Virus record (IMG/VR): IMGVR_UViG_3300042691_018732
Location: 1 to 31,406 of that record
Strand: one strand, 5' to 3'
Origin: a virus
DNA length: 31,406 nt
Part shown: piece after piece, positions 6,620-20,112 of the stretch
Position numbering within the stretch: the stretch's first letter is position 1
Layout of the letters: the number at the start of each line of letters is the position of its first letter
Program-made: the position numbers and the translations under genes
The notes under the pieces: model-generated
The model's input: only the letters and a program-made list of their open reading frames with translations
Told to the model about the DNA's origin: nothing
Databases searched by the model: none

Positions 6620-8080
6620 ATGGATGTCTCGCTGATGCCGACCGAAGTTCTCCAACGAGAACTTATCAAGCCGACCGGCGCGTTTCCGGCGTACCTCGCG
6701 ATGGCGGAGCTTCAAAAGCGCGTCGCCATGAAGAACCAAGGCGATGCGAGCAAGGCGCAGGGTCCGACGGTCGCGCAGCAGCTTGTTGGTCAGCCGACTG
6801 CGTATGCGGATGGCGGGTCGGTGCGTAGCTATCAAGGCGGAGTGTTCAATCCGGACGGTACGCCAAACGTGCAGCGGGGCATGAGCCCCGGTGGTTACTG
6901 GCAAGGTATTCTTCCGTGGCTGCTCGGTCAGGAAAATAGTAAAGGCGGCACGCCTCGCAAAGACTGGAATCAGCGCGACGAAGGTCCGGCGTTTATGCGT
7001 TGGTTCGGGGGCGCTGGCGGTGCAAGTGAAGCCGCTGTTGCGGGCGAACCGCCTGTTAGCGATTCTTACCGCGACGAAGGCCGCAACTATCCGTTTGTTC
7101 CACAACCCACAAAAGAAGATGCAAGAAAAGCTGATCAGCCGCCTGTACCACCTGAAGGCAAAGGTTCGTCTAGCGTACGCGCGGGTATTGGTGCGTATGC
7201 GCCGGGTGCGGCCCCCGACCTGAGCCGGTTTGCGATGCCCACGATGGGCACGCCGGCCGCCGTAGCGCGGCCTGACTTTGCTTCGATTCGCGCCGGCATG
7301 ACGCTGCCTGATCGTACGGGCAAGGTGAGCGAGGGCATCGCCGGGCTTGAAGAGCGTCTAGGCCAACGCGAGAAGGGCAACCTGTCGAACGCGCTGATGC
7401 AGTTCGGCCTTGGTGCGCTTGCAAGCAAATCGCCGTGGACGGCGGTGGGTGCCGGTGAAGCCGGGCTTGGCGCGCTTAAAGACTACCGTGCTGCTCAGTC
7501 CGAGCAGGACAAGGCTCGCTTCGAACTTCTCAAAGCGCAGGGTGACATCGCGCGTATGCAAGGCGAGGGCGACCGGGCTGGGCTTCAGGCTGCCACGCAA
7601 AACTTTGGCACCGCGATGCGCTCGGCGGATTCGGAAGCCAACAACAACGCGCAGCTTACGGCGGCGCAGTATCAGGGCGCGGTGCAGGGGCGTAACACCG
7701 ACGTGAACGCCGCCACGCAGATGTACGGAATTGGTGAAGCAACAAAAGCGCGGATGCAAGCGGCGGCTCTGTCCGCGCAGGCACGCGGCGATCAGAAAGA
7801 ACAGGACACGCTGTTCAAGTACATGCGCTACATCGAGGACGCAGAGAAGCGTGCCGATGCGTCGCTGGCGACCGACGCCAAGACGATGCTGCTGATGGAG
7901 ACGAACCCCAACGCGTTTGAACTTCTACGCGCGCAGCGCCGCGAAGCCGCCCGTCAGGAAGTCCTGATGAAGATGCCGGTCGAGATGCAGCAGCAGTTCT
8001 CGATGAACATGTCGGCTGCTGGCGGCGGTCAGCCCGGTATTGTTTCTGCTCCCCCGCCTAACGCTCGGATTCGGCAATGA
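6620..8080 (+). CDS. Internal virion (ejection-type) protein with coiled-coil C-terminal half
   Basis: A 486-residue protein. The N-terminus (LMPTEVLQRELIKPTGAFP, AMAELQKR) is a recurrent start in podovirus structural proteins next to giant ejection proteins. A YADGGSVRSYQGG motif follows (about 55-68), then a low-complexity Pro/Gly section (to about 190) and long helices with EEKxx/QQ-rich heptads (about 235-440, for example DKARFELLKAQGDIARMQGE). It overlaps the giant gene by ATGA, implying coupled translation. Probably a partner of the giant protein in the capsid or ejectosome; this is inferred from context, not from a catalytic motif. Confidence 0.6.
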   Translation: MDVSLMPTEVLQRELIKPTGAFPAYLAMAELQKRVAMKNQGDASKAQGPTVAQQLVGQPTAYADGGSVRSYQGGVFNPDGTPNVQRGMSPGGYWQGILPWLLGQENSKGGTPRKDWNQRDEGPAFMRWFGGAGGASEAAVAGEPPVSDSYRDEGRNYPFVPQPTKEDARKADQPPVPPEGKGSSSVRAGIGAYAPGAAPDLSRFAMPTMGTPAAVARPDFASIRAGMTLPDRTGKVSEGIAGLEERLGQREKGNLSNALMQFGLGALASKSPWTAVGAGEAGLGALKDYRAAQSEQDKARFELLKAQGDIARMQGEGDRAGLQAATQNFGTAMRSADSEANNNAQLTAAQYQGAVQGRNTDVNAATQMYGIGEATKARMQAAALSAQARGDQKEQDTLFKYMRYIEDAEKRADASLATDAKTMLLMETNPNAFELLRAQRREAARQEVLMKMPVEMQQQFSMNMSAAGGGQPGIVSAPPPNARIRQ

Positions 8081-11000
8081 GCTTTCTATCGCTTCCTGAC
8101 GGTTCGTACCTTCAGCTTCGTCCGGGTGAAAACCCGGCGCAAGGGCGGCTGCGTGCGATGCAGCAGTACCCGGAAGCGTTTAACCTTAAAGGTCCGGAAG
8201 CTGCACCCGCTCCGCCTAGCGGCGTGATCCCCGCACTTAAGCAGGGCGCTACGAATTGGGCGCAGAACGTCGGCACCGGCATCATGGGGATGTTCAACCC
8301 GCAGGCAGCGGGTCAGGCTGCCGTGGTGGACGCGAAGCAGCCGCAGGCAGCAACGCTCACAAACTTCCAAGACGTTCAGGACGCCTTTAGCAATCAAGGT
8401 ACGTTGTCCGGTATCGGCACGCTGGGTGCGTTTGCGCGCGACAGCATCGTGTCGAATCTTCCAAATATGGCAGCGTCGATTGCTGGTGCAAAAGCTGGTG
8501 CGATGGCTGGCGGCGCTGCGGCACCTTTCCTTGGCCCTCTGGCTCCTGTCGCTCCGCTTGCGGGCGGCGCGCTGGGCGCGTTCGTTCCTTCGCTGGTTAC
8601 GCAGGCTGGTTCTAACATCCAGCGGCAAGCTGTTGAACAGGACAAAGCCGGACAACCCATCGACGTTTCTCGCGCTGCGGCATACGGCACTGCCGTACCG
8701 CAGGCCGGTCTGGACGCGGCGTCTACTTTCCTGATTCTTGGCAAGCTGGGCGTTGCGAAAGTCGGTGGCAAACCGATCCAAGAAGCAATGAAGGCTGCCG
8801 GGGCCGGCGCCGAGAAAGAGCTTCTAAAAGCCGCTGAGCGCAGCGTGCTTGGAAACGTCGGGCGCGGCTTCGGGCGTGGTGCTGCGGCAGAGATGCCTAC
8901 CGAGGTCGCGCAGCAGGTTCTTGAACGCGCGCAGGCAGGGCTGCCTATCACGGGCGAGGAAGCTAACCGCGAATACTTGGAGGTGGCGGCAGCCGCCGGT
9001 ATCTCGGGCGGTGCGTTCGGTGGTGCCGCGCAGTTTGGCGCGAAGGGCGCTGGACAGCAGCTTAAAAAGGCTAACGAAGCTCAGCACAAGATCAACCTGA
9101 AGCACTCCAAAGATTTCGCAGATTCCGAAAACGCGCGGATGCAGCCCAACGACGGGCCGAAACCGTTAGACGATTACGAACGAAATTTTGTTCCCGGATA
9201 CGACAATCCGACGGTCCGCGAAGTCCAACCCGCAACCAAACGCGGTAAAGATGAAGACGGTGTTTCTGGCATGTTTGTCGGCACCGGCAGTACGGCAGAC
9301 GCGCTGCGCGCAAAGATTGAAGAAGAGCAAAACGCCGGGCTAGTTGGCGGGTTCTACGCTGACGCTGCCACACGCGGAAAGCTCAAGTTTCAGGCCGACG
9401 CTTTAGACGAAGCAGACCGCATGACGGCGGAGGAACGCTCTGCCGAAGAAGAGCGCGTTGCTCGTGTCGACCAAATTGAAAAAGCGCCTTTTCAAGTAAA
9501 CGCAGAACGTCGTGCAAATTTCAGCACGATGTTGTCGCTTCCCCGACTGCGTAGAAACAAAGAAGGCGTGGTTGACCCGGCGTTTACCGCCGAACTTCAA
9601 ACTTCGCTTGATCGGGGAGTGCCTACACCTGCGTTTATTCAGGTTGCTGGGCTTCCTAAAGACTTTCAAAAGCTAGATCCTACTGCCCAACTAGAAGCTG
9701 TTCGTACTAAGCACGAGCAAGTTGCTGCGTCGCTTGATCCAAGCAAACCGGAAATACAGCAACGTTCAAAGCTCGCGCATCTTGAACTGCTGAGTAATTA
9801 CGCTCGGGCGCTGGTAGCCGCAGCGGAAAATCCTTCTGGCGGGCAAGCTGCAATCGACGCAACGCGGGAACTAAATCCGGACACCAACATCCCGCGATAC
9901 ACAGGGCCGCGCCCGGAAGAAGTGCCCCAGCAGCCTCCGGCTGCCCCGGTGCAAGATCCGCAACAGCTTGACCTGATTCCGGGCGGGAGCCAACCGCTGT
10001 CTTCGTCTGGACCGCTAGCTGTCGAAGCGCAAGAACTCGGTGCGCAAAAGACGCAAGCCGAAGAAGCGCTTGCGCAGCGTCCGTTCGACCAAGACGCGCA
10101 AGATCAATTTGAACGAGTTCAGCATCCTTTCCAGCAGGCGCGAGAGCGGCAGCTTGCTATGCAAGCGCGGGAAGGGCTTCAGAGTGCGCTGCAAAGTTCG
10201 GCTATTCCGAGCGACACTCGCCAATTGCTGCAAGCAGCCTATGACATTCTGAGCCGCCCGGACGGTAGCCAGCCGCAGCGCGTTACAGATTCGAAAGAGC
10301 AGCTTGCTGCTGCGGCTGAGCGCGTTGTCAACCAAAGTCGGATGCGGCAGCCCGTCGATGCCGAAGGACTCCGGGAGGCACTGCTTGCGTTTCAAACGCC
10401 GGACACACGCACGCGGCCACTTTTCGGAAACGCTCAACCGCAGAAAGGCACTCCGGAAACTCCGGCAGCCAAACTTACCGACCTGCAACTCCGAAACAAA
10501 ATTGCAGAATGGACGGGGCAGCTTAAATCAGCCAAGACCGCGCTAGACAACGCAATTAAGGCATCGCGGGAGGCAGTTGTTCAGTTCCGTAAAAAAGATA
10601 CGGTGCTGTATCCATTGCGCGCTAAGTTAAACGCTGTCAACAAAACGCTTGCTATTCTCGATAAGAGAGATCCCAACGCACTTATCGACAAGATTGAGCG
10701 GTTTGCCGAAGGCGAAATGGATCCGGCAAACCGTCGGTCGTTTGCCGAAAGCGAGATGGACACACAAAGTCCAAATCGTTTTGCTGAAGGCCAGCCGAAA
10801 AACGAACGCCCGCTGACACCTGCGTGGCTTTCTACGATGCGCGCGCAGATTGTGCCTGCGCAGCAGGCGTTGGAAAAAGAACTTGCAGCACTTGAAAAGG
10901 AAGTCGACTCTGCGATGCAGCGGGCCGACGCCGAGTTTCAAGAGTTGCAAAGTAAGGTTGACGGGATCAAAGCACAGTCGCCTGCAAAGAAAGCACTAGA

Positions 11001-14000
11001 AGATAAAATTGCGGCTCGACGTAAACAGCTTGCCGAGATCGCTGAAGAAGCTCGAAAAGTCACGCAGCACGTCAGCCGCTCTCCGCATTTTGTAAAAGCG
11101 GCTCCGGTAAAGGTTCCGGTTGCTAAAGACAGTTCTACACGCGCGGCAGCGATGCCTCCGCCAGTTCCCGGCACTAAACCAAGCGTCGTTAACAAAAAGA
11201 CGGCGACACGAACCAACATGGTCACCGAGGAAGGTGACCCGGTTTATCGCGAGCGCACGCAGACGCAACGCTTTGATACGCCAGAAGCAACACAAGCCAC
11301 GCCGCCTTCGGTCGGGTGGAGTAAACCCGCGCGTGAACTGACGCCAGAAGAACGGCAAGCCAACGAAGCAGAGTTTCAACGCGAAGTTGCCGGACGCGAA
11401 GAACAGATTGATGGACTTTACAAAAAAGCTCCAAAAACTAAACTTGACGACAAAGTTGAAGGTTCTGACAACCTAGATGAACTGACCCCGGCACAGCGCC
11501 GAGAAGTCGAAGCCGCGCTTAAAGGTAAGAAAAAAGCGGAGGGGCAACGCGGCCAGACGCAAGACCCTTTTTCGACGCCAAAAGCCGACGACGTACTCTC
11601 GGATCCTAAGCAGCGTCTTCTAGGAGCGGCAACCGAAGCAATTCGACGCCGCTTTGGAGATACGCCAACGCCACAGCAAACCCGAGACGGTGTGCTGTAC
11701 GCTGCAATGGATCTGCTGGACGATCCGGCTGCGCTTGGCGTTTCGCCGCTGCATGCGAAAGCGCTTCAACAATACCTCTCGTTGCTCGACGGGCTGACAA
11801 AGAACGTCACCGTTAACTTTCAAAACGACTACAAGTACGCGGGCGAATACTTCGCGGAAAGCAACTCGATCACGCTGGATTCCAAAGCGTCGGTCGCTAC
11901 TTTCGTACACGAACTTGCGCACGCAGCTACCGTCAAATCTCTTGCCGATACGGTCAGTGCTTACCGTGCGAACGTAGGCACGCCGCCTGTCGAAAACATT
12001 CGCAAGGCGACGCCCGAGCAGCTTATCGAAATGGCGCGGGGGCTAGCGGCAGCCGGCGCTTGGCCGCAAGAAAAAGCCAACGCGCTTGAAAACCTTGCGG
12101 TGGCGTGGGGGTCTGTCGAAGAAAGCGGGCGTTACGGCGGCGCAAACATTCTTGAATTTGCGGCGGAGTGGTACGCCGACCCGACGTTTGCAGACTTTGC
12201 TTCGAAGCAAGTTGCTGGGCTGAACCTGAAAGACACGACACCGAACAGCGGGTTCTACGCAAAGCTGCGTAAGCTGGCCGACAAAGTGCGTAACTTCATG
12301 GCCGATTTTCTCGGCTTGACTGGGCTGCAACGTACAGCGTTTGAACGCATCAGCAACAGCGTCGCGATGTTCCACGACAATGCGCAGCGCGACGGAAGTA
12401 TTGCTCCGGTACAGCACAAGCCGGACATGTCGCATCTGGAGTCTGATCTTCAGACGTTTTCCGACGTTATCCAGCACAAGAAAGATCCGGGGCTGTGGGC
12501 TACGATCAAAGCGAACATCACCGGAATGGGGTTCCGGGTCAACGTGCTTGATACAGGCGGAGCGCTGGAAGAAGTAGCGACCCGCGCGCGTGACGCAGGC
12601 AAGATTGACAACGACACATGGCTGCGCACCATGTGGCCGTACAGGCAGGCAAACCTGACCTCGCACTACATGCGCTCGATGCTTGCCGACAAAGAAGCGT
12701 TCTTTAACCCGCAGACCGGCATGCTGGATCTTCGGGATTCGCCGAACACGGTCATGAACGAAGCCAGACTGCTCGCAGAGCACGGTGTGCCAGAAGGCGA
12801 AACAACGTTTCAGCTTTACAAGGTCGCCAAGCGTGCGCAGCGTGTTGGTGTTGATCGCCTGCGCAAAGCGCTGGGCAATGAAGGGCTTGACAGCACGTGG
12901 ACCAAAGACAAGATCGACAAGGCTGCGCGGCTTAACGAGCAGTATCCGATCTTCGACAAGCTGTACGAAATGGCGAATGCGCGGCACAACGCGCTGCTCG
13001 ATCTGATGGCGCAGTCTGGTCGGATGCCTAAAGAGCAAGTCGAGCTTCTTAAATCGTTTGGCGACTATGTGCCGTTCTACCGTGCGGATGACGACGGCAC
13101 GCTGTACATCGTTCACGACGACAGCAAAGAAATTGCAATCGGCAAAATCGACGACCCGCAAGAACTGAAAGCGCTGCAAGGCGGCAAGGGCAAGATCAAG
13201 CCGTACTTTACGAACGAGATCACGAACACGCGCTACATCCTGAATAGCGCGCTGCGCAACAACGCGCTTCGGCAAACAGTGAAAGTTGCCGAAGACCTGA
13301 AGCTGGGTTACCGAACCGGAACCAAACGCTCGGCTACCCGCACGCTGACATTCTACGAAGATGGGCAAGAGAAGTTCTTTGAGTTTGACGACAAGGCAAT
13401 CAGCGATCCGGAACAAGAAGGACTGTACGACGGTGTTTCCGCCGAACTGATCGCAACGGCGTTCATGGGCACGCGATATGCACTGCCCGCTGCGCTCAAG
13501 TTGATGCAGTACCCGGCAAGACTGCTTCGGCAAGCCGTCACACGCAGCCCGCTCTACCCGCTGCGCCAGCTTCTGCGCGAACCGATCACGTCAAACTTCA
13601 CGGCCGGCAACAATACGGTGCCGCTGGTGGGCGCGCTGCAAGCGCTGGTCGGGGCTAAGCAGGAATACCGCGATTCCGCCAAGACGCTTGAGCGGTACGG
13701 CATCGTTGGCGGGCAGGCGCTGTCCGGCACGACCGAAGATGTTCAAGATGTGCTGCGCAACCTCGTCGCCGGTAAGACACCGCTGAACAAGGCACTCGCT
13801 GCGCTCGACAAGTTCGCGATGGCTGCGGACATGTCTACACGGCAGACGATCTTCGCGTCGGCGATGAAGCAGGGCATGAGCGAGCCCGAGGCCGCACTGA
13901 TGGCGCTGGAGTCGATGAACTTCACGCGGCACGGCGCGCTGCCCACAGTGCAGATGCTCTCGATGCTGGTGCCCTTCTTGAACGCGCAGCTTCAAGGTCT

Positions 14001-15033
14001 TGACGTGCTCTACAAGTCCGCGCGCGGCAAGATGGCGTTCAACGACCGGCTTGGTATTCAGAGGAAGTTCTTCACCCGCGCCGCGATCATGTCCGGCATG
14101 GCGATGGCCTACGCTGCTTCCATGTCCGACGAAGAGCCGTGGAAAACGGCGAACGAGCAAGAGCGCGACATGAACTGGTTCGTGCCGGTGCCGGGCGTCG
14201 AGGGCGCGTGGATCAAGGTGCCGGTCAACTTTGAAATCGGCTATCTGTTCAAAGCGCTGCCCGAACGCATGATGGCGATCATGCAGGGCGACGACAAAGC
14301 TACATCGGTTATCAGTTCGTTCAAGTCGTTCGCCGCGCAGACGTTCCCGAATCCGATCCCGCAGGCGATCAAGCCGGTGCTGGAGTGGTGGACGAACTAC
14401 TCTTTCTTCACCGGCCGTCCGATCCAGACCGAGCGGATGATGAGCCTCGATCCGAGCCAGCGGTTTACGGAGCGTACGTCCGAGCTTGCGAAGGCAGCCG
14501 GCCGCGTTACAGAGTTCACGACGCCGACCGGGCAGAAAGTCGGACTATCCCCGGCCGTAATCGAGCATTTGGTTCGGGGGTACACCAGCCAGCTTGGCAT
14601 GGTCGTCATGCAGACTGCCGGCGGAGCGATGGAGGCGATGGACGGTAGCCAGCGATCGGAAAGACCTACACGAGAATTGTACGAAACTCCGTTGTTTGGG
14701 CCGGCGCTTGCAAATACGCGCGGGTTCGGGCCGACCAACAAGTTCTACGAGATCAAGACGGAGCTTGACCGTCGAGCCAACACGCTGCGCGATCTTGCGA
14801 TGCAAGACCCCGACCGAGCCCGGCAGTACGCGCAGGACTACGCGCAGGACGCCGCCATGTCCAAGGTTGCCAACCAAATCTCCGGCAAGCTCAACCAGCT
14901 TCGCAAACAGCAGGCGCAAATCTGGTACTCGGACGCCGACCCGGACGAGAAACAGCGCAAGATCAGGCAGCTACGTGAAGCCGAGCTTCAGCTTGTCAGC
15001 CGCTTCAACGTCCAGTATCAGGCGTTACGTTAA
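8077..15033 (+). CDS. Giant multidomain ejection (polyvalent) protein with zinc-protease-like motif
   Basis: The 2318-residue protein has recognisable regions in order. Residues 1-40 contain DGSYLQLRPGENP. Residues about 110-195 are Gly/Ala-rich and hydrophobic, likely membrane-active. Residues 230-830 are largely disordered and charged. Coiled coils lie at about 845-960 and 960-1015, separated by three FAEG-type repeats (876-905). A zincin-like domain holds HELAH at 1278-1282 (FVHELAHAA) with candidate third ligand Glu1360 or Glu1364 (LEFAAEWYADP). The C-terminal third (about 1440-2318) resembles large polyvalent protein-associated domains, with MLSMLVPFLNAQLQGLDVLY and a helical end. Such proteins are packaged and injected ahead of DNA. 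It overlaps the 486-residue gene by ATGA and ends tail-to-tail with the replication unit. Single intact frame; protease activity is inferred from the motif only. Confidence 0.7.
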   Translation: MSFLSLPDGSYLQLRPGENPAQGRLRAMQQYPEAFNLKGPEAAPAPPSGVIPALKQGATNWAQNVGTGIMGMFNPQAAGQAAVVDAKQPQAATLTNFQDVQDAFSNQGTLSGIGTLGAFARDSIVSNLPNMAASIAGAKAGAMAGGAAAPFLGPLAPVAPLAGGALGAFVPSLVTQAGSNIQRQAVEQDKAGQPIDVSRAAAYGTAVPQAGLDAASTFLILGKLGVAKVGGKPIQEAMKAAGAGAEKELLKAAERSVLGNVGRGFGRGAAAEMPTEVAQQVLERAQAGLPITGEEANREYLEVAAAAGISGGAFGGAAQFGAKGAGQQLKKANEAQHKINLKHSKDFADSENARMQPNDGPKPLDDYERNFVPGYDNPTVREVQPATKRGKDEDGVSGMFVGTGSTADALRAKIEEEQNAGLVGGFYADAATRGKLKFQADALDEADRMTAEERSAEEERVARVDQIEKAPFQVNAERRANFSTMLSLPRLRRNKEGVVDPAFTAELQTSLDRGVPTPAFIQVAGLPKDFQKLDPTAQLEAVRTKHEQVAASLDPSKPEIQQRSKLAHLELLSNYARALVAAAENPSGGQAAIDATRELNPDTNIPRYTGPRPEEVPQQPPAAPVQDPQQLDLIPGGSQPLSSSGPLAVEAQELGAQKTQAEEALAQRPFDQDAQDQFERVQHPFQQARERQLAMQAREGLQSALQSSAIPSDTRQLLQAAYDILSRPDGSQPQRVTDSKEQLAAAAERVVNQSRMRQPVDAEGLREALLAFQTPDTRTRPLFGNAQPQKGTPETPAAKLTDLQLRNKIAEWTGQLKSAKTALDNAIKASREAVVQFRKKDTVLYPLRAKLNAVNKTLAILDKRDPNALIDKIERFAEGEMDPANRRSFAESEMDTQSPNRFAEGQPKNERPLTPAWLSTMRAQIVPAQQALEKELAALEKEVDSAMQRADAEFQELQSKVDGIKAQSPAKKALEDKIAARRKQLAEIAEEARKVTQHVSRSPHFVKAAPVKVPVAKDSSTRAAAMPPPVPGTKPSVVNKKTATRTNMVTEEGDPVYRERTQTQRFDTPEATQATPPSVGWSKPARELTPEERQANEAEFQREVAGREEQIDGLYKKAPKTKLDDKVEGSDNLDELTPAQRREVEAALKGKKKAEGQRGQTQDPFSTPKADDVLSDPKQRLLGAATEAIRRRFGDTPTPQQTRDGVLYAAMDLLDDPAALGVSPLHAKALQQYLSLLDGLTKNVTVNFQNDYKYAGEYFAESNSITLDSKASVATFVHELAHAATVKSLADTVSAYRANVGTPPVENIRKATPEQLIEMARGLAAAGAWPQEKANALENLAVAWGSVEESGRYGGANILEFAAEWYADPTFADFASKQVAGLNLKDTTPNSGFYAKLRKLADKVRNFMADFLGLTGLQRTAFERISNSVAMFHDNAQRDGSIAPVQHKPDMSHLESDLQTFSDVIQHKKDPGLWATIKANITGMGFRVNVLDTGGALEEVATRARDAGKIDNDTWLRTMWPYRQANLTSHYMRSMLADKEAFFNPQTGMLDLRDSPNTVMNEARLLAEHGVPEGETTFQLYKVAKRAQRVGVDRLRKALGNEGLDSTWTKDKIDKAARLNEQYPIFDKLYEMANARHNALLDLMAQSGRMPKEQVELLKSFGDYVPFYRADDDGTLYIVHDDSKEIAIGKIDDPQELKALQGGKGKIKPYFTNEITNTRYILNSALRNNALRQTVKVAEDLKLGYRTGTKRSATRTLTFYEDGQEKFFEFDDKAISDPEQEGLYDGVSAELIATAFMGTRYALPAALKLMQYPARLLRQAVTRSPLYPLRQLLREPITSNFTAGNNTVPLVGALQALVGAKQEYRDSAKTLERYGIVGGQALSGTTEDVQDVLRNLVAGKTPLNKALAALDKFAMAADMSTRQTIFASAMKQGMSEPEAALMALESMNFTRHGALPTVQMLSMLVPFLNAQLQGLDVLYKSARGKMAFNDRLGIQRKFFTRAAIMSGMAMAYAASMSDEEPWKTANEQERDMNWFVPVPGVEGAWIKVPVNFEIGYLFKALPERMMAIMQGDDKATSVISSFKSFAAQTFPNPIPQAIKPVLEWWTNYSFFTGRPIQTERMMSLDPSQRFTERTSELAKAAGRVTEFTTPTGQKVGLSPAVIEHLVRGYTSQLGMVVMQTAGGAMEAMDGSQRSERPTRELYETPLFGPALANTRGFGPTNKFYEIKTELDRRANTLRDLAMQDPDRARQYAQDYAQDAAMSKVANQISGKLNQLRKQQAQIWYSDADPDEKQRKIRQLREAELQLVSRFNVQYQALR

Positions 15034-15038: not shown

Positions 15039-15231
15039 AGACGCGCAGCCCGTAGAAGCCGTCGTGTACTTCCTCGTTGAAGCGCACGCGGCACTCTACG
15101 GCTTGCGCAAACTCCTGCACCTCTGACCTCACGCGGTCGGTATCCAAGCACGGCACGAAGAAGCTGTCGCCGGGCATCATTAATGCCAGAGGGTAGAAGT
15201 ATCTAGTCTTCCTTTTGGACGGACGTTCCAT
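15025..15231 (-). CDS. Small conserved-type phage protein (GDSFFVP motif)
   Basis: A 68-residue protein from the ATG at 15231 (MERPSKRKTRYFYPLALM); an upstream in-frame ATG at 15279 would overlap the primase gene by far more and adds residues unlike the family. The chosen start overlaps the primase end by 29 bases. The pattern YPLALMMPGDSFFVPCLD, a helix (VRSEVQEFAQAV), then RVRF and a terminal GLRVWRL is one I recognise from many small phage proteins next to replication genes. Their function is unknown to me; the fold looks like a short alpha/beta unit. Its stop overlaps the end of the giant protein gene on the other strand by nine bases. Confidence 0.65.
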   Translation of the reverse strand: MERPSKRKTRYFYPLALMMPGDSFFVPCLDTDRVRSEVQEFAQAVECRVRFNEEVHDGFYGLRVWRLT

Positions 15232-18184
15232 CGGAATCCGCCACCACCGCGTCGATGTCGTTACGCAACGACACGCCAATCTCTACACACAGGAGCGGGA
15301 GGTCAATCCCGAGGTTAGTGTCCGCAAACAAACGGCGTCGGCACCCAGTCTTCACGGCTCTCTCAAACGAGAGTTCAACCAGCAGTTCGTTTGCATCAAG
15401 GCGCTTTTCATGCTGACACCACGTACGAAACGACGCTTCTTCGATATAGAGTTTCGCGTCGTCACAGCCCTCTACCTTTTCGAGACGACCCCGAATATCC
15501 CGCGCAGTAAACTTGGAATCAGCGAGTGCCTTGAATCCGATAGTCGTGTTGTGCCCACCGCCTCCACCCATGTCGGTGATCACGAGAAACTGCCCGAAAA
15601 ACTGGTTGATGTAGCGCGCGAGAATCTCCGTCGCGCTCTCCCTGAGTTTCAGGGCAACCGTTCGTTGGTTAAGGAATAACTCATAGACAAACTTCTCAGC
15701 GTGCGAGCAATCAAAATCAATGATCTTGGCTTCTTGCGCCAGCGGGATCGCCGCCAGCACCGTGACCGCCCATGCTCGCCAAAACCGTTCATCGTTCTGC
15801 GGTGCGACGTGTCGCTCAAGCAATCTCTCCGCAGCAACGATCGCCATGCGGACGCGCTCCGGGCGCGTGACCAAGTACCGTACGAATTCGGGGCCGGCGT
15901 GTCCGTAGTGATTCTTCAGGTTGTCGAAGATCCGGCGCTTCTCAAGCGGAAGCTGGATCACACGGTTGACTGGAATATCTACGATCCGACGAAGTTCAGG
16001 GGCGATGTTCCGTCCCTCATTTTCCAGCAGCGTGGCAAGCGTTGCGTTGCTGGAGCACACAAGATGCGAGTTCCAGTACGTCGTGTTCACCTTCGCGCGG
16101 CCCTGCGAGTCCAGCCGCTCTTTACCTTTGCCGTGCGTGACCTCCATCACCATGGAACGCAACCGCTCCGCAGCCTGCGTAGCAATCTCGTCGACTGTGC
16201 AGGCAATGTCGTGCAGCACGCCCATGAACTGCTGGATCGCCACGTTCGACGAACTCGATGGCAGCGCCATGTCTTGCGGGTTACCCCACAGCGAGTTGAT
16301 CGCATAGAGCAGCGTCGACTTGCCGGTGCCCGACATGGGAGCGCCGAAATGAACCAGCACGCCGCGTTCGGCTTGCGAACGCATAAGCAGCGAGCCAAAC
16401 CCCGACAGAAATCCAGCCATGTGCCGACCTCCTTCGGGTACGCTGTAGACACGAATAACTTCTTTCCAGCCGTCGTAGTCGCCAACCTTCTTCATCAAAT
16501 TGATCTGGTTGGTAGCGGCGGGGCAGGCCGGTACAGGCCGATAACCACGGGGCGAGATTTCTACCTCGCCGATAACGAATGACTTTTCGTCTTGCCAACC
16601 GAGGTGAAGCGGTACGGTGGTGGCGCGTGTGGTGTAAGTTAGGTTCTTGGCAACCGCGTTCATGTACAGAGCGATCTGCTTCGACTCGCTCTCCAGCACC
16701 GGCACCCCAGCGCTGTCCAAAACAACCTTGAGCTTGTCCGGGGCCATCTTGTCCCCGCCGATGAAGATCTGCTTCCAACCCTCGACCGGGTTGTGGCACA
16801 ACGCGCGAATTGAATATGAGCCGCCGTAGTTCACCATCGACACAAAGAACAGATTGTGTGAGGTGACGAGCTTGTGCTCTTTTTGGGTAACGCCGTCGGA
16901 ATCAGTCTTTTGCTCTAAGACGTAGATACCCACGCCGTTTGGCCCCCACACGTACGGGGCCGGCAGTGGAGGAATCTCCGAGGGTAGTTCCGTCAGGCGT
17001 TCTTCTGTTGGGCGCGGCTTGGCTTCCGGGTCCGGGTCTTCCGGTTCCTCCGGGCTCTCCGAGGGTTCCGATGCCGACATGTAAGCCAGCGCTTGCGGGG
17101 GCGGGGGCGGGCCGGAGCGCAGCACCTTCGTCAACATGATCGGCCCGACGATCTTCCCGTTGTGGCTGCACGTCGAGCAAGCGTCCGGGTTCTGGCTGGA
17201 CTTTCGGAGCGCCTCGCAAGAGTACGGCCCCCGCATGTCCTTTAATTTCTGCTCGGCCCGGCTCCAGTCGTAGGGGTGAAGCTTCGTCAGAAAGCGCGCC
17301 GACTTTTCGCGGTCCGTGCAGCAAGAAACAATAGTCAGTAGCCCGCGCCACAGCGGCTCCATGTTTTGCTCTTTGGCATTGCGCACATAGTAACGAAGCT
17401 GTTCGCATCCGTCGTTAGCCTCGGTGCGATCCAGCAGCCGGCGAAACACCGACTCCTCGTTACCAGCGAGCGCGAGCGTCAGCGCGCTAGGTTCGCTCTT
17501 GGGCAGGGGTGTCCCTTCCAGCGCGAACAGGCTGCTCGGTGCCTCCTTCTTTGTGTACGGCTCGGCAAGAGTACGGAACACTTCGAACTCGGTCTGCGCG
17601 CCTTCCTGCAAAACCTGTACAAGACGCGGCGCGTCAGGGTTCTTCGTGTTCAGCGTGCGTGGCACGCGCAGCACGCGTGCAGCATCGGCAGCGGCGGATC
17701 GGTCGATCCGGATGCCCTTGACCTCCAGCATTGCCTTGAACCCGTCGGCAACGCGCTTCCACTCGGAGGTCGGTACGTCTTCGGTGAACGCCCAATAAAC
17801 GTGGATGCCGTAACCGGAGTCTACGAGGTAAGGCACGCTCAGTCCGTGCTCGGCGCTGAACGCGTTAATAACGTCGGTTATTACTTCCTTTGATTCGTAG
17901 CCGGCGGTGGCGTTGGCGTGAGCGTCTCCGTTTTCTTCGATGTCAAGGAACATCGCGCGGGTAAGCAGCGCGTTGTCGGCCTTACGACTTTGGTTGGTCT
18001 TAAACGACGACAGGGCGAAATACACATTTCGCCCCGCCTTCATGTTCGCCCCGATAAGGGGTTTAAGTTCGTCGATGTTCTCGGCGAACTGCTGCACAAC
18101 CGGATCGGTTTTTCCCGCGATACCGACGATGCAGTAAACCCCCTGCGCCGGAAGAACCCGGCGCATGAACTCCAACGGCTGCAT
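15203..18184 (-). CDS. PrimPol (archaeo-eukaryotic primase) fused to DUF927/D5-like helicase
   Basis: The 993-residue protein has an N-terminal AEP-type primase with motif I FLDIE (79-83, Asp81/Glu83), motif II SGYGIHVYW (123-131, His128) and motif III region LRVPRTLNTKN (172-182). A Cys cluster (C323, C336, C339, with H341) suggests a small zinc module, followed by a Pro/Asp/Glu-rich linker (358-410). The C-terminal ATPase has Walker A GAPMSGTGKST (614-624) and Walker B-like TVDEI (663-667), as in DUF927-type replicative helicases. It should prime and unwind at the fork. SD GAGG precedes the ATG, twelve bases after the HTH gene. Domain calls are firm; whether it also polymerises long products is unknown. 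Confidence 0.85.
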   Translation of the reverse strand: MQPLEFMRRVLPAQGVYCIVGIAGKTDPVVQQFAENIDELKPLIGANMKAGRNVYFALSSFKTNQSRKADNALLTRAMFLDIEENGDAHANATAGYESKEVITDVINAFSAEHGLSVPYLVDSGYGIHVYWAFTEDVPTSEWKRVADGFKAMLEVKGIRIDRSAAADAARVLRVPRTLNTKNPDAPRLVQVLQEGAQTEFEVFRTLAEPYTKKEAPSSLFALEGTPLPKSEPSALTLALAGNEESVFRRLLDRTEANDGCEQLRYYVRNAKEQNMEPLWRGLLTIVSCCTDREKSARFLTKLHPYDWSRAEQKLKDMRGPYSCEALRKSSQNPDACSTCSHNGKIVGPIMLTKVLRSGPPPPPQALAYMSASEPSESPEEPEDPDPEAKPRPTEERLTELPSEIPPLPAPYVWGPNGVGIYVLEQKTDSDGVTQKEHKLVTSHNLFFVSMVNYGGSYSIRALCHNPVEGWKQIFIGGDKMAPDKLKVVLDSAGVPVLESESKQIALYMNAVAKNLTYTTRATTVPLHLGWQDEKSFVIGEVEISPRGYRPVPACPAATNQINLMKKVGDYDGWKEVIRVYSVPEGGRHMAGFLSGFGSLLMRSQAERGVLVHFGAPMSGTGKSTLLYAINSLWGNPQDMALPSSSSNVAIQQFMGVLHDIACTVDEIATQAAERLRSMVMEVTHGKGKERLDSQGRAKVNTTYWNSHLVCSSNATLATLLENEGRNIAPELRRIVDIPVNRVIQLPLEKRRIFDNLKNHYGHAGPEFVRYLVTRPERVRMAIVAAERLLERHVAPQNDERFWRAWAVTVLAAIPLAQEAKIIDFDCSHAEKFVYELFLNQRTVALKLRESATEILARYINQFFGQFLVITDMGGGGGHNTTIGFKALADSKFTARDIRGRLEKVEGCDDAKLYIEEASFRTWCQHEKRLDANELLVELSFERAVKTGCRRRLFADTNLGIDLPLLCVEIGVSLRNDIDAVVADSDGTSVQKED

Positions 18185-18470: not shown

Positions 18471-18531
18471 GCATACCTTTAGAGGAGAAGAAAACAGGGG
18501 CCGCAGCCCCTGTCGTAAGCACAAGGTATGC
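18471..18531 (-). promoter_or_regulatory. 9-base inverted repeat flanking the terminator and covering an SD
   Basis: GCATACCTT (18471-18479) and AAGGTATGC (18523-18531) are perfect inverted copies, 43 bases apart, on either side of the hairpin at 18494-18513. Read on the - strand, the first copy begins immediately after the stop of the SSB-like gene and the second contains the AAGG Shine-Dalgarno sequence of the HTH gene, just before its ATG. Pairing would close a long nested stem that hides the SD; alternatively the copies are operator half-sites. Confidence 0.6.
18484..18513 (-). terminator. Intrinsic terminator after the SSB-like gene
   Basis: ACAGGGGC (18494-18501) and GCCCCTGT (18506-18513) form a perfect 8-base GC-rich stem with loop of four. 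On the - strand it is followed by TTTCTTCT, an imperfect T-tract. It lies between the SSB-like gene and the HTH/PrimPol genes, so it probably reduces read-through to the distal part of the replication unit. No + strand gene ends nearby. Confidence 0.7.
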
Positions 18532-20063: not shown

Positions 20064-20080
20064 GCGAAGTCCTCGTGGGT

Positions 20081-20102
20081 TAATAACCGGCGTTATTGCC
20101 GG
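20081..20102 (-). terminator. Weak hairpin after the helicase gene
   Basis: CCGGC (20087-20091) and GCCGG (20098-20102) pair with a loop of six; on the - strand TTATTAA follows. An alternative stem AATAAC/GTTATT (20082-20087 / 20092-20097) overlaps it. This may be a weak terminator or attenuator between the helicase and the next gene. Confidence 0.4.
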
Positions 20103-20112
20103 GGAACAAACT

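Follow-up and report, generated by a model that had tools for sequence, protein, structure and literature searches.

A nested RNA hairpin in the gap between an SSB-called gene and an HTH-primase gene pair of an IMG/VR virus, at a junction that holds differing RNA structures in relatives

Introduction

CUUCGG intercistronic hairpins and PeSLs are T4-type intercistronic cassettes, RNA elements set between the genes of a phage operon. Another cassette of this type is the IC-UTS of 44RR gene 43, and in the T4 genes soc, e, I-TevI and mobE the ribosome-binding site is sequestered in a hairpin that has a late promoter within it (PMC2988022). T4 gene 32, which encodes the phage SSB, is controlled at the mRNA level through a 5' pseudoknot to which gp32 binds, and an RNase E site lies near its stop codon (PMC3014915). 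Translational coupling through an RNA structure that is unwound by the ribosomes of the upstream gene has been reviewed (PMC7538156). Here we set beside these systems the junction between an SSB-called gene and a small HTH gene in a 31,406-base IMG/VR virus record, the whole of which we call the window.

Results

The gap and its neighbouring genes

A replication operon on the - strand takes up most of the window's right half, and the SSB-HTH gap is the longest in it, the other junctions being overlaps or spacers of at most 15 nt with the exception of one 49-nt gap. The latter, at window 20064-20112, holds a short hairpin, CCGGC-AAUAAC-GCCGG. Further along the window, positions 8077-15033 contain a 2318-aa open frame with the large polyvalent protein-associated domain LPD38.

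We infer the SSB label for the upstream product, which has conserved Cys 92/112/115/130 and an acidic WDDA-type tail and no match in Pfam or by PDB sequence search. The fold predicted for it (pLDDT 68) has a weak resemblance to a fusion of the phiC31 recombination directionality factor, with a chain of the phiC31 integrase-RDF fusion as best match (E 4e-3, prob 0.96). The start of the HTH gene is backed by homology, with M1 and Y3 invariant in the alignment of homologues.

Table 1. Positions of genes and RNA features around the SSB-HTH gap, in window coordinates.
Feature	Position	Strand	Basis or remark
SSB-called gene, 281 aa	18532-19377	-	ORF list, phrog_27714 (unknown function), homologue alignment
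SSB stop TGA	18534-18532	-	proximal arm begins at 18531
Proximal outer arm GCATACCTT	18523-18531	-	nt +1 to +9 past SSB stop
Inner hairpin GACAGGGGC-UGCG-GCCCCUGUU	18493-18514	-	9 pairs
U-rich tail UUCUUCUCCUCU, intrinsic-terminator-like	18481-18492	-	sequence
AAAGG Shine-Dalgarno-like sequence of HTH gene	18480-18476	-	6 nt 5' of ATG
Distal outer arm AAGGTATGC	18471-18479	-	ends one base short of HTH ATG
HTH ATG	18469-18467	-	sequence
Small HTH protein gene, 90 aa	18197-18469	-	homologous to same-place gene in relatives
PrimPol-type primase/helicase gene (DUF927)	15203-18184	-	12 nt past HTH

A two-layer hairpin fills the gap

The gap measures 62 nt on the - strand and is filled exactly by the two outer arms, which pair 9/9 (100% complementary, 9 bases each) across the 43 nt that separate them. 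Within it, the inner arms 18494-18501/18506-18513 pair at 8/8 positions, and an outer G-U (18514-18493) brings the inner hairpin to its nine pairs. Most of the AAAGG Shine-Dalgarno (SD) sequence sits in the distal arm. An earlier, sequence-only reading of this DNA had described perfect 9-base outer arms nested around a perfect 8-base inner stem, a proximal arm directly after the SSB stop codon and a distal arm that contains the HTH SD, and all of this proved right at the positions of Table 1. The nested two-layer intercistronic RNA hairpin is confirmed as sequence and pairing potential, and its outer stem presumably also forms in the cell.

Across the window as a whole the arms are unremarkable, 9-base inverted repeats with arms less than 80 nt apart being both expected and found across the 31 kb. 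Within this gap they are unusual and unlikely to have arisen by chance: shuffling the two flanks 20,000 times gave at least 9 pairs at the gap ends in 2 cases, and 18 of 20,000 random 62-mers from the window gave them at the same position. RNA folding of the junction, which had been suggested as a check, gave a strong fold of -33.1 kcal/mol (z -4.5, equalled by 0 of 200 shuffles; z -4.2 when folded with the gap boundaries), and two same-length control segments from the adjoining coding ends gave z +1.1 and +0.25.

The terminator that had been claimed inside the repeat is present as a terminator-like GC hairpin with a U-rich tail: nine pairs (six of them GC), a loop of 4 and the tail UUCUUCUCCU, in keeping with the GC-hairpin plus U-tract pattern of intrinsic terminators. 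Such a match says little by itself, the surrounding 7-kb region holding 7 terminator-type sites against 7.6 expected in shuffles. The hairpin and tail would nevertheless suit a plain leaky intrinsic terminator, or a hairpin that stabilises the 3' end, following an SSB message made in abundance; the outer arms would then only add length to the stem and play no part of their own in translation. Relatives often have simple GC hairpins without a masking arm at this junction, which speaks for it as well. We hold this explanation to be possible but rather doubtful, because the arms match the gap to the base, which chance is unlikely to produce, and because they cover the SD.

The outer stem masks the HTH start in folding

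When the arms are paired in folding, P(unpaired) is 0.00-0.08 for the SD bases 18479-18476 and about 0.1 for A and G in the HTH AUG (~90% hidden). Covering or removing the proximal arm opens the AUG to 0.91-1.0 and most of the SD bases to 0.5-0.7; with the arm covered, the last G of the SD is still paired, in a weak local hairpin. The HTH SD and start thus pair with sequence that a ribosome at the SSB stop can reach, as in a coupling hairpin. A terminating ribosome extends about a dozen bases beyond the stop codon. The proximal arm directly follows the SSB stop and falls entirely within this reach, so such a ribosome should open it, which favours translational coupling of HTH-PrimPol to SSB over blocking. 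The earlier proposal that read-through from SSB blocks HTH translation is therefore kept in one half, the outer stem masking the ribosome-binding site in folding, and given up in the other, as SSB RNA under translation should open HTH.

In the mechanism that we favour, the outer 9-bp stem would hide the HTH SD and start codon unless the proximal arm is covered by the ribosome that completes SSB, and HTH, and PrimPol through HTH, would be translated mainly from messages with SSB under translation. The inner GC hairpin and its U-rich tail would act as a leaky terminator and/or a 3'-end-protecting hairpin, and the outcome would be SSB message made in excess of HTH-PrimPol message. To this reading, in which the gap is a translational coupling element with a leaky terminator or 3'-end-protecting hairpin at its centre, we assign a probability of about 0.48; the opening of the stem by ribosomes and the terminating or protecting role of the hairpin are both inferred. 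Of 103 gaps of 18-200 nt, the window's among them, just 7 have an SD-like sequence before HTH, a rarity that fits coupling as the default translation mode of this gene. The junction hairpins of relatives mostly have neither U tract nor SD and may accordingly serve another role than the window hairpin.

The sequence-only reading had proposed a switch, in which RNA that reads through from SSB is blocked for HTH and RNA initiated within the repeat is free, as in T4 late genes. The masking geometry is indeed that of T4 soc, e, I-TevI and mobE (PMC2988022), and RNA that lacks the proximal arm is open in silico. Ribosomes translating SSB would, however, open the proximal arm, and the free RNA claimed to start inside found no promoter-like site in the gap, in a scan confined to sigma-70-like sites. 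We consider such a switch between SSB and primase expression very unlikely.

The junction position is conserved in relatives and the arms are not

We collected relatives with SSB queries, which gave 45 viral loci and then 80 of at least 592, and with a SNF2 helicase query, which gave 75. Among the matches listed, the HTH gene follows SSB in 205 IMG/VR loci, with 152 distinct junctions after deduplication, and the nearest SSB homologues are ~50-58% identical to that of the window. The window's two outer arms occur in none of these 205 junctions among the matches listed, where single-arm near-matches are scattered. Near relatives with the same arms were likewise absent from a DNA search of named phages and from an SSB query of GTDB genomes, a PrimPol query found no relatives, and the HTH protein had no match against named phages. 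Conservation of the arms, set beforehand as the refutation test, thus fails at the level of sequence, though RNA structure at the junction is widespread in relatives. Judged by these alignments, the junction position is conserved and the window's sequence version is its own.

These data bear on a second proposal of the earlier reading, that the arms are operator sites for the HTH protein, which we take as DNA half-sites for autoregulation. The adjoining gene does encode a DNA-binding-type HTH protein, and the arms lie 52 bp apart, about five helical turns. Relatives, however, keep the HTH gene and not the arms, and the exact arm occurs in the window only at 18471 and 18523, its near-matches being scattered like chance, which leaves the claimed operator with neither a second copy nor further half-sites at a promoter; the sigma-70-like scan found no promoter at the site itself. 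Autoregulation through these arms appears most improbable.

Among the matches listed, the 152 distinct junctions are of several kinds, namely overlapping or abutting genes, short gaps with one hairpin, longer gaps with larger structured RNAs, and junctions with an extra gene. The short gaps, of ~29-45 nt, hold one GC hairpin, often GGGGGC-UUCG-GCCCCC, and in the compact type it typically stands 7 nt from the stop codon and 8 nt before the ATG. The density of GC-rich hairpins is ~13 times higher in the junction gaps than in the rest of these loci (2.37 vs 0.18 per kb), and the junction folds of relatives have a median z of -1.5 vs -0.2 and -1.0 in coding controls. A closing stem of at least 5 pairs near both ends is seen in 42/79 junctions (53%) vs 31% of coding control segments, an enrichment of this theme that is only moderate. 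A GC hairpin also follows the SSB homologue of phage Rollin and, by fold, that of Rhizobium phage RHph_TM3_14A; none was found at this place in Xp15, Effie and KPP25.

Larger RNAs at the same junction

Two larger RNAs recur at the SSB-HTH junction of relatives, neither of which is in the window. The first, of ~150 nt, covaries: of the 29 pairs predicted from an alignment of 13 loci, 14 show pair-keeping changes on both sides. Examples are L048:9009-9164, L013:5952-6103, L059:4436-4599, L297, L313 and others. A pattern scan for this RNA returned mostly likely chance or coding matches, at a fixed 89-nt spacing, and was discarded.

The second has an invariant frame around an interior that is wholly different between phages: about 5-8 nt after the stop codon comes TTTC GGGGGGAAAGCGGATGC ... 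GCAGCGAGTACCCCC ACC. The element GGGGGGAAAGCGG...GAGTACCCCC is seen directly past stop codons in uncultivated phages, for example at L063:9012, L064:9042, L070:3130, L129:2859, L190:9068 and L126:5439, with about 100 more. In the pairs L063/L064, L190/L229 and L129/L189, the SSB ends are 96-97% and the downstream parts 96-99% identical, and the interiors differ in length and have near-random identity. An unbiased pattern scan for the frame gave 123 occurrences; 119 lie at most 45 nt past the stop codon that closes an open frame, and 120 include the invariant frame's 3' half. Among 74 distinct proteins upstream of the frame, 34 are SSB-like and 3 more have DLPF tails; 23 of the 34 belong to the window's family and the rest to DUF669/phrog_6015, Enc34-type and phrog_7364 proteins, several unrelated families. 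The frame is practically absent from named phages, our literature search found no paper with its sequence or an equivalent element, and Rfam at or above the gathering threshold returned nothing in the window and no credible match for the relatives' structures.

Some of the hypervariable interiors (L070:3130; L143, - strand 10659; L231, - strand 9499) resemble pieces of the tRNA T-arm, in sense or antisense. ARAGORN calls no tRNA genes within the interiors despite these T-arm-like pieces. The junctions of L269, L294, L285, L252, L283 and L263 hold further unrelated large folded RNAs with a G-run/C-run closing stem.

Discussion

We see even odds that in this large phage group the gap after SSB is a conserved slot that swaps unrelated structured RNAs (compact UUCG hairpins, the covarying RNA, and the invariant-frame RNA with its hypervariable interior) and sets SSB/primase expression, the window holding one more, so-far-unique version. 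This proposed exchangeable-RNA slot is a more surprising result than the window hairpin. If the slot is real, the invariant-frame RNA, which also follows unrelated SSB families, would represent a so far undescribed family of exchangeable RNA cassettes in phages. One junction with differing RNA structures across many uncultivated phages offers a natural variant series in which intercistronic RNAs can be tested. For the window itself, if coupling around a leaky terminator or protecting hairpin holds, one structure would both trim transcription and link the translation of primase to that of SSB; with SSB required in bulk and primase in small amounts, it would be a compact ratio setter.

The described systems each share part of this arrangement. 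Like T4-type cassettes, these are RNA hairpins in phage gene junctions that vary between relatives, whereas the literature searched gave no description of a post-SSB junction that swaps many unrelated structured RNAs. As in T4 gene 32, mRNA-level control is proposed for an SSB-type gene, but the window structure, predicted from sequence and folding, lies 3' of the gene. With the hairpins of T4 soc, e, I-TevI and mobE it shares a phage operon and a ribosome-binding site within the stem; theirs contain a late promoter, whereas the sigma-70-like scan found none in the window gap. Intrinsic (Rho-independent) terminators likewise have a GC hairpin followed by a U-rich tract, but the window tract is interrupted by C and sits inside a larger stem, and genes of the same operon continue downstream. 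As in coupling of the type reviewed in PMC7538156, the RNA masking the downstream start begins where the upstream gene ends; in the window, in contrast, an intrinsic-terminator-like hairpin is nested within the predicted masking stem.
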